Below are positions 44,988-46,292 of a stretch of 64,000 bases of DNA, piece by piece. Where the stretch lies: contig NZ_AFEJ02000001.1 of NCBI RefSeq assembly GCF_000238775.2, positions 1,798,001-1,862,000 on the forward strand, read 5' to 3'. The notes beneath the pieces are model-generated. The model saw only the letters and a list, made by a program, of their open reading frames with translations, did not search any database and was not told the origin of the DNA. The position numbers and the translations under genes were made by a program. Each line of letters begins with the position of its first letter. The stretch's first letter is position 1. The DNA is from Acaryochloris sp. CCMEE 5410 (lineage in GTDB: Bacteria; Cyanobacteriota; Cyanobacteriia; Thermosynechococcales; Thermosynechococcaceae).

Positions 44988-46292
44988 ATGGATTATGAAA
45001 GCATGAAAGGGTTAGCCGGAGAGGTTGAACCCAAGTTAATGGCTATATTGGCTGAATTTAATCAGACTTTGAAAAAGTATGGTGTTTCAAACGCCAGGGT
45101 GGTTGAATTTACCCTCAGTGATCAAGAGATGCCGGAAATGGAAGGTCTGTCCTGCAACTTTTCCTGTTGGGTGTCCCCTAGCAATTTGACCTGTGGTATC
45201 AAATGCGAATTTGAAGCCTCTGGCACCACTGGAGCGAAACCTGCAGCCATCGCTACACCGACGGCTAAAAAAGCGGAAAAGGCTAAGCCTGTAGCGGCAG
45301 CAGCGGCAGCTCCCACTAAATCTGCTGCACCTGCAGCGAAAAAAGCCAAGAAAAAGTCGGATGTTCCGATTAATATCTACCGTCCCAATAAACCCTTTGT
45401 GGGCAAGTGTGTGTCCAATGAAGAGCTGGTGGGACCTGGTGGTATTGGTACCTGTCGACATCTGATTTTCGATATCTCTGCTGGTGATTTGAAATATGTC
45501 GAAGGCCAGAGTATCGGCATCATTGCTGACGGCACGGATGATAAAGGCAAACCCCACAAGATTCGCCTTTATTCCATTGCATCAGCCCACCGTGGTGATT
45601 ATCTAGATGATAAAACCGTCTCTCTCTGTGTCCGCCAATTAGAGTATCCTGACCCAGATACGGGTAAAACGGTATATGGGGTTTGCTCCAGCTTCCTGTG
45701 TAACCTCAAACCTGGAGATGATGTCAAAATCACGGGACCTGTGGGTAAAGAGATGCTTTTACCGGATGATCCCAACGCCAACATCATTATGCTGGGGACC
45801 GGGACTGGAATTGCCCCCTTCCGCTCCTTCCTCTGGCACTTGTTCAAAGAGAATGAAGATGCCAATGCCAATCCCTTCTGGTTACCCAAGTTATTGGGAT
45901 GGGTCAAGCCCTCTGACAAGCCTAAGTTTAACGGCAAGACCTGGTTGATTTTCGGTGTCGCTACTACCCCCAATATTCTGTACAACAAGGATTTAGAAGA
46001 CCTACAGCGTCGCTATCCCGACAACTTCCGCTTAACGAAAGCCATTAGTCGTGAGCAGAAAAATCCTGAAGGTGGACGGATGTATATCCAACACCGGGTC
46101 GCAGAGCATGCGGAAGAACTCTGGCAGATGATCCAGCAAGAAAATACCCACACCTATATTTGTGGTTTGAAAGGGATGGAAAAAGGCATTGATGAAGCCT
46201 TAAGCGCCGTTGCCAGCAAAGATGGCGTTAACTGGAGCGACTATCAACGGGAAATGAAAAAAGCTCATCGTTGGCATGTAGAAACCTACTAA
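44988..46292 (+). CDS. petH: Ferredoxin-NADP reductase with an unusual N-terminal domain
   Basis: Moves electrons from ferredoxin to NADP. Residues 130-434 are a normal FNR: FAD site with RLYSIAS and [18 protein letters not shown] site with [17 protein letters not shown], and the C-terminal Tyr in HRWHVETY. Most cyanobacterial PetH carry a CpcD-like phycobilisome-linker domain first. Here residues 1-75 are different ([20 protein letters not shown]), with four cysteines spaced CxxxC at 56/60 and CxxxC at 69/73. An Ala/Lys-rich linker (about 80-125) follows. No Met sits between the linker and the FNR part, so the short isoform made by internal start in Synechocystis is not obvious here. Confidence 0.96.

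Follow-up and report, generated by a model that had tools for sequence, protein, structure and literature searches.

Ferredoxin-NADP reductase (FNR), the product of petH, is anchored to phycobilisome rods in many cyanobacteria. In model cyanobacteria, one petH gene gives rise to a long phycobilisome-bound form (FNR_L) and, via an alternative start, to a short soluble form (FNR_S), and where FNR is located is considered to affect how electrons are shared between linear and cyclic flow (PMC4030315). In CpcL-phycobilisomes, the rod end has been reported as the site of the FNR CpcD domain (PMC10322944). PCC 7002 without this domain was reported to be impaired in reducing plastoquinone and in growing photoheterotrophically; in Synechocystis, blocking the attachment of FNR was reported to have little effect on plastoquinone reduction by NADPH (PMC9319322), and thus a tether is not always important. 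The FNR of Gloeobacteria is described as having no CpcD head (PMC10696076). The fate of FNR after loss of the rods has been little explored in the literature searched.

In A. marina, phycobiliproteins are reported to have been lost and, in MBIC11017, regained by horizontal transfer (PMC9324425, PMC11633204). The gene named as a remainder in A. marina lacking phycobiliproteins is apcB (PMC9324425), and the presence of petH in multiple copies in this species has been published (PMC5438491). No mention of differing heads on the Acaryochloris petH copies was found in the open-access literature searched.

The window analysed here is a stretch of 64,000 nucleotides from Acaryochloris sp. CCMEE 5410 (genome G000). 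A sequence-only reading had noted in it a PetH with a four-cysteine N-terminal domain in place of the CpcD-like domain, followed by an Ala/Lys-rich basic linker. The open reading frame at 44988-46292 on the plus strand encodes an intact PetH of 434 amino acids with an ATG start, termed copy B. Only three codons separate this ATG from the upstream stop, and ALR-MDYES is found at the start of all four B proteins (the window protein and three relatives); hence the start is not in doubt. The features of the gene and its surroundings are as follows.

43573..44532, minus strand: TraB/PrgY/gumN-family gene, forming the left boundary of the occupied site
44988..45227, plus strand: head domain, residues 1-80; without family or PDB match, conserved in four species, low-confidence AF2 model
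45153..45206, plus strand: CX3C-X8-CX3C segment (Cys 56, 60, 69 and 73), read directly and invariant in four species
45228..45362, plus strand: Ala/Lys-rich linker (residues 81-125), with a net charge of +9 and lacking an in-frame ATG
45363..46292, plus strand: FNR core (FAD and NADP domains), residues 126-434 and stop codon; motifs intact
45855..45923, plus strand: NADP-domain insert, about residues 290-312, from comparison with other FNRs
46343..46374, plus strand: terminator-like hairpin and T run 3' of petH, from a consensus scan alone
46521..46868, plus strand: DUF4870 gene, forming the right boundary of the occupied site

Given the terminator-like hairpin and T run after the gene, copy B is probably transcribed alone. 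A simple pattern search found no NtcA box between 44533 and 44987.

Core and head domain of copy B

Residues 93-434 of copy B match the cyanobacterial PetH family NF045929 at 1.6e-174, and the core matches PDB entry 1quf, a solved Anabaena FNR, at E 1.4e-141. All eight FNR motif patterns examined are intact, including the cofactor motifs and the C-terminal WHVETY. The core shares 58-76% identity with the 36 non-B rows in alignment A2. The whole-protein score of 580.5 bits does not reach the NF045929 cut-off of 600, and positions 1-84 of this family, which would cover the head, are unmatched; the score for NF058510 (bifunctional CpcD/PetH), 572.2 bits, does not reach its cut-off of 635. The NADP-domain insert amounts to 19 extra residues as compared with copies A and C (see below) and 15 as compared with Anabaena FNR, and its residues 291-309 have a pLDDT <50 in the full-length AF2 model. 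A different and longer insert occupies the same site in a Pseudanabaenales MAG (L015). In the species collection, the top three loci, which are 88-97% identical, belong to Acaryochloris sp. MAGs.

The cysteine pairs at 56/60 and 69/73 and the Ala/Lys linker read as claimed. Pfam and NCBIfam gave no match to residues 1-121 searched alone, even at E 10, and nothing better than E 1.7 was found among PDB sequences for residues 1-81. PF01383 (CpcD) did not match the N-terminus of copy B at E 10, and a hidden kinship with CpcD was rejected, as the profile-profile probability against 76 CpcD-type PetH heads was 0.4%. The description of the head as not CpcD-like therefore stands. A search of PHROGs gave three matches at E 0.06-0.14, all to families without a known function.

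Of 29 genomes of the order searched, four were found to carry the head, all of them Acaryochloris (4/7 genus genomes); it was not found in any of the 22 genomes from outside the genus. In a phylum sample of 386 genomes, 25 gave a head match at E up to 0.1, namely the window's own and 24 weak matches, the best of which had E 0.0035. The 19 weak matches with a locus were re-scanned frame by frame; several cross stop codons or sit within long unrelated proteins. The three most relative-like of these were traced further. L151 and L152 (G358 and G026) proved to be an out-of-frame reading of a 325-residue MoaA-like protein, and this reading shares the CX3C-X8-CX3C spacing with the head by chance, which calls for caution in motif searches. 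L143 lies antisense to a frame of 184 residues whose product resembles the ATP synthase delta subunit. No head relatives were found on plasmids or viral contigs. A possible second copy in G001 (L005), comprising the first 26 head residues, was rejected, since its contig stops at that point and also holds the flanking TraB gene; it is most likely the same G001 gene cut by the contig end. With 19 of the 24 weak matches rejected, the head appears to be without a credible relative outside the genus in the searches made, and its function is thus not readable from relatives.

Among the four species, residues 1-80 of the head are identical at 74-78 of 80 positions in the six pairwise comparisons, and Cys 56, 60, 69 and 73 are invariant. 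The head dN/dS is 0.02-0.07 at dS 0.29-0.70 (six pairs), as compared with 0.02-0.04 for the core, which is more constrained than the head in every pair; by this measure, constraint on the head is weaker than that on the core by a factor of 1.3 to 2.3, depending on the pair. The linker has dN/dS of 0.03-0.19, is looser than the head in 6/6 pairs and contains indels. As judged by these substitution rates, the head is under strong purifying selection. The low dN/dS, together with the looser adjoining linker, suggests that the head is most likely functional. That it is an evolutionary leftover or a spacer without specific function would agree with its confinement to one genus and its lack of recognisable relatives, but is highly improbable, given the low dN/dS in spite of substantial synonymous change, the invariance of all the cysteines and the greater drift of the adjoining linker in six of six pairs.

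The petH copies, the rods and the origin of copy B

The FNR core search of 14 chosen genomes revealed three petH genes in G000, termed A, B and C, and the four-cysteine head is present on copy B only. With two further petH in G000, copy B is not the only PetH of the strain but an additional, probably acquired paralogue. Copy A (G000:C2:1933380-1934246, minus strand, L128; elsewhere L124, L125, L127, L131 and L136) starts with MEKPFDRLKKDLRNFAKAGAKMVNIDVPE and aligns with the C-terminal half of CpcD at a probability of 84.8% (P 6.5e-6); the Pfam CpcD match in it is below threshold (E 0.082). This CpcD remnant would represent a visible step in the decay of the phycobilisome dock. Hence, the expression 'in place of' CpcD is upheld in so far as the head is not CpcD-like; the domain swap in the strain's PetH that it implies is not supported, as copy A, the PetH that groups with its own family, keeps the remnant. 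Copy C (G000:C1:3608112-3608978, minus strand, L135; elsewhere L129, L130 and L137) is a bare FNR, which starts with MQLKEKIPVNIYRP.

Copy A is present in 6/7 genus genomes (not found in G001 and a fragment in G003), and copy B in four of the seven (G000, G001, G002 and G004), the same four that carry copy C. No PetH was detected by the core search in G013, which is 99% complete, or in G014, though cyanobacteria should have one; the search thus misses some genes, and petH absences are to be taken as provisional. The main photosynthetic FNR may be copy A, with copy B as a special-purpose enzyme.

PF01383 (CpcD) gave no match at E 0.001 in any of the seven genus genomes, G000 included, and was present in 30/39 genomes of the whole CpcD search. 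The rod-linker domain PF00427 was likewise not matched at E 0.001 in the seven genomes, and the positive control was found; six of the seven are 82-92% complete. With neither domain found in the genus, there would be no rod for PetH to dock to, and the suggestion of altered phycobilisomes is upheld to this extent. Phycobiliprotein-type PF00502 has two or three matches per genus genome, one of them strong in all seven. The matches in G000, at C1:2900011, C1:2016546 and C6:248253, persist though the rod-linker domain was not found.

The four B rows also differ from CpcD-type PetH in the region from which a short form could be initiated. In the 40 codons that precede the core, an in-frame ATG is present in 70/78 CpcD-type rows versus 0/4 B rows, one of which has two GTG codons in this interval. 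In copy A, an in-frame ATG occurs in 2/6 rows, within the CpcD remnant. With a 30-residue limit and all rows pooled, an in-frame ATG was found in 76/112; some genes are duplicated among the PetH rows, having come from different collections. Copy C supplies a bare FNR form from its own gene. As copy B has no internal ATG and the bare copy C is present in the same four genomes, the FNR isoforms seem to be split over separate genes in Acaryochloris. The genus, which lives on far-red light, offers a natural test, with one FNR whose dock has decayed, one bearing a new head and one that is bare.

The TraB-family and DUF4870 genes that flank copy B in the window were found in G005 (L202, G005:C75:30800-32900) as adjacent, divergently oriented genes, separated by 222 bases that hold no petH. 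This empty site indicates that copy B was gained cleanly as a single gene, or that it was cleanly lost in G005. The contig of G006 ends beside the DUF4870 gene and neither flank was found in G003; both genomes are uninformative on the site.

When 91 FNR cores were placed in a tree, the four B rows grouped as a single clade (100/100), which joins Moorena, Symplocastrum and Coleofasciculus (bootstrap 85-86, SH-aLRT 74-76), and copies A and C lie apart from B, within a group of 12 rows of the family and its neighbours (96/96). Constraining B with A cost 42.7 log units (AU p 0.061), and constraining B with the 12 family and neighbour rows cost 41.2 log units (AU p 0.024). Since the constraint groups were chosen after the tree had been seen and the bootstrap had not settled, a horizontal gain is favoured, not shown. 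Thus, copy B is probably a horizontally gained FNR paralogue, as judged from the tree and the empty site. In the tree, the five closest rows to B have ordinary CpcD heads; hence the four-cysteine head was presumably added in or near Acaryochloris. Plasmid-borne petH gave 75 records, all at <60% identity, with no cyanobacterium among the 20 matches listed.

Proposed role of the head

Copy B keeps the FNR_L layout of head, linker and enzyme, with a different head and a flexible basic linker. We propose, with about evenly balanced confidence, that the head is a lineage-specific tether that places FNR at a thylakoid partner other than the phycobilisome and has taken over from the lost CpcD dock in positioning the enzyme; the tethering, the partner and the role of the cysteines are what we infer in this proposal. 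Candidate partners would be the acceptor side of photosystem I (PSI) or its Pcb antenna, NDH-1, or a lipid surface contacted by a helix and the basic linker. Such a tether would keep NADPH production, or the return flow from NADPH to ferredoxin, near the membrane in cells without rods. The partner of the head, once found, would show where FNR sits without phycobilisomes, and the head could be used as a small module to position FNR in engineered strains. A more far-reaching scenario, tentative and unlikely, is that loss of phycobilisomes was followed by a change from one petH gene with two isoforms to three FNR genes, in which a redox-responsive head at chlorophyll-d PSI/Pcb or NDH-1 would have taken over the role of CpcD in cyclic flow.

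Modelling of the head alone by AF2 gave a mean pLDDT of 54, with a helix at 3-30 and a hairpin at 54-63/66-75. In the full-length AF2 model, built from 40 sequences, the core is mostly confident and the head is low (blocks of 34 to 63 pLDDT), with a helix at 13-30 and a hairpin at 54-63/68-77; the linker stretch 73-127 has a pLDDT <50. The models being poor, the head fold is not established, and the absence of any Foldseek match below E 2.4 with the head model, which is too poor for this to carry meaning, is to be read in the same way. A four-cysteine beta-hairpin in the head is nevertheless plausible from the predicted strands, on the non-polar face of which all four cysteines lie.

The cysteines could act as a redox switch, with disulfides forming and breaking across the strands between 56 and 73 and between 60 and 69, whereby the position or activity of FNR would track the redox state of the PSI acceptor side. 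The pairs would face each other across one turn, as 56+73 = 60+69 = 129, and the strands of the head-only model have the matching register. The two strands are amphipathic to a degree reached by 0.005 and 0.003 of shuffles. When residues 50-80 were shuffled 200,000 times, with criteria chosen after the pattern had been seen, the mirror symmetry of the cysteine spacing about the turn recurred in 6.7%, together with the same-face geometry in 1.1%, and with equal amphipathicity added in 0.017% (33 shuffles). The full-length model, however, has its strands in another register, in which these cysteines would not be paired; alternating with L, F, I and V on one face, they could instead be buried core residues; the four near-identical sequences provide no covariation; and the compartment is presumably the reducing cytoplasm. 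Because the criteria are post hoc and the two models differ in hairpin register, disulfide pairing is offered here as a hypothesis only, and the switch is judged to be unlikely.

Four invariant cysteines within 18 residues could alternatively form a metal or iron-sulphur site, within one head or across two heads. CxxC knuckles are usual for zinc ribbons, but the spacing here is CX3C, and a flat single hairpin would be expected to set the pairs too far apart for one metal. Neither Pfam nor NCBIfam gave a match, and no significant match to a solved structure was found among PDB sequences or with the Foldseek model, itself poor; hence this explanation is very doubtful.

Direct association with the membrane through an amphipathic helix and the basic linker, without a protein partner, was also considered. 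The helical moment of residues 3-30 was equalled in only 0.6% of shuffles, and the linker, with 11 K+R and 2 D+E in residues 81-125, has a net charge of +9. The last 45 residues before the core carry +8 to +9 in the four B proteins versus a median of +1 in 78 CpcD-type rows, which supports the linker being unusually basic; since linkers at +8 or +9 also occur in 3/78 of these rows, this charge is not unique to B. A hydrophobic PetH head in the genus of G023 (see below) provides a parallel. On the other hand, the head itself is acidic (6 K+R versus 12 D+E), and no transmembrane-like or hydrophobic segment was found in the head and linker, in which the best 19-residue mean hydropathy is 0.65. 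Membrane association unaided by a protein is therefore regarded as distinctly unlikely, and tethering to a thylakoid partner is the reading retained here.

Comparison with known systems

G023, a genome of 1.7 Mb, has no CpcD match, and its PetH (L123) starts with a hydrophobic segment with a 19-residue mean hydropathy of 2.1. A similar hydrophobic head is present on a PetH-length frame in 29/31 genomes of the same genus, a count that leaves out one genome matching only a 100-residue frame (30/31 with it included). In this genus (L123, L180-L191; genomes of 1.0-1.7 Mb), the first 33-74 residues also match other short frames, of 40-133 aa, in many of the genomes. From these matches, the N-terminal segment looks as if it were a shared membrane-anchor module. 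PetH of G023 is like copy B in having a non-CpcD head module in a genome without a CpcD match, and unlike it in that the head is hydrophobic and shows no evident similarity in sequence.

The PetH frame of Prochloron didemni (L070) opens with ILGIKPK, followed by a linker. The Prochloron lineage is said to lack phycobilisomes, and ILGIKPK may be a CpcD remnant, possibly from a similar decay in another lineage.

A CX3C-Xn-CX3C arrangement with outer-outer and inner-inner pairing is known from the small Tim chaperones, which are helical hairpins in another compartment. The copy B head differs from them in its predicted strands and in having no Pfam match.

The order of head, linker and enzyme is common to copy B and FNR_L, which consists of a CpcD head, a linker and the FAD and NADP domains. 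Copy B differs from FNR_L in that its head is not CpcD, it has no internal ATG, its NADP domain contains an insert and it is one of three paralogues. FNR_S is resembled by copy C, and copy B differs from it by its head. The FNR of Gloeobacteria and FNR_S are alike in representing FNR in settings without rod-end docking sites. The head of copy B is real, conserved and undescribed in the literature searched, and the protein is a PetH variant, not a system of a new kind.
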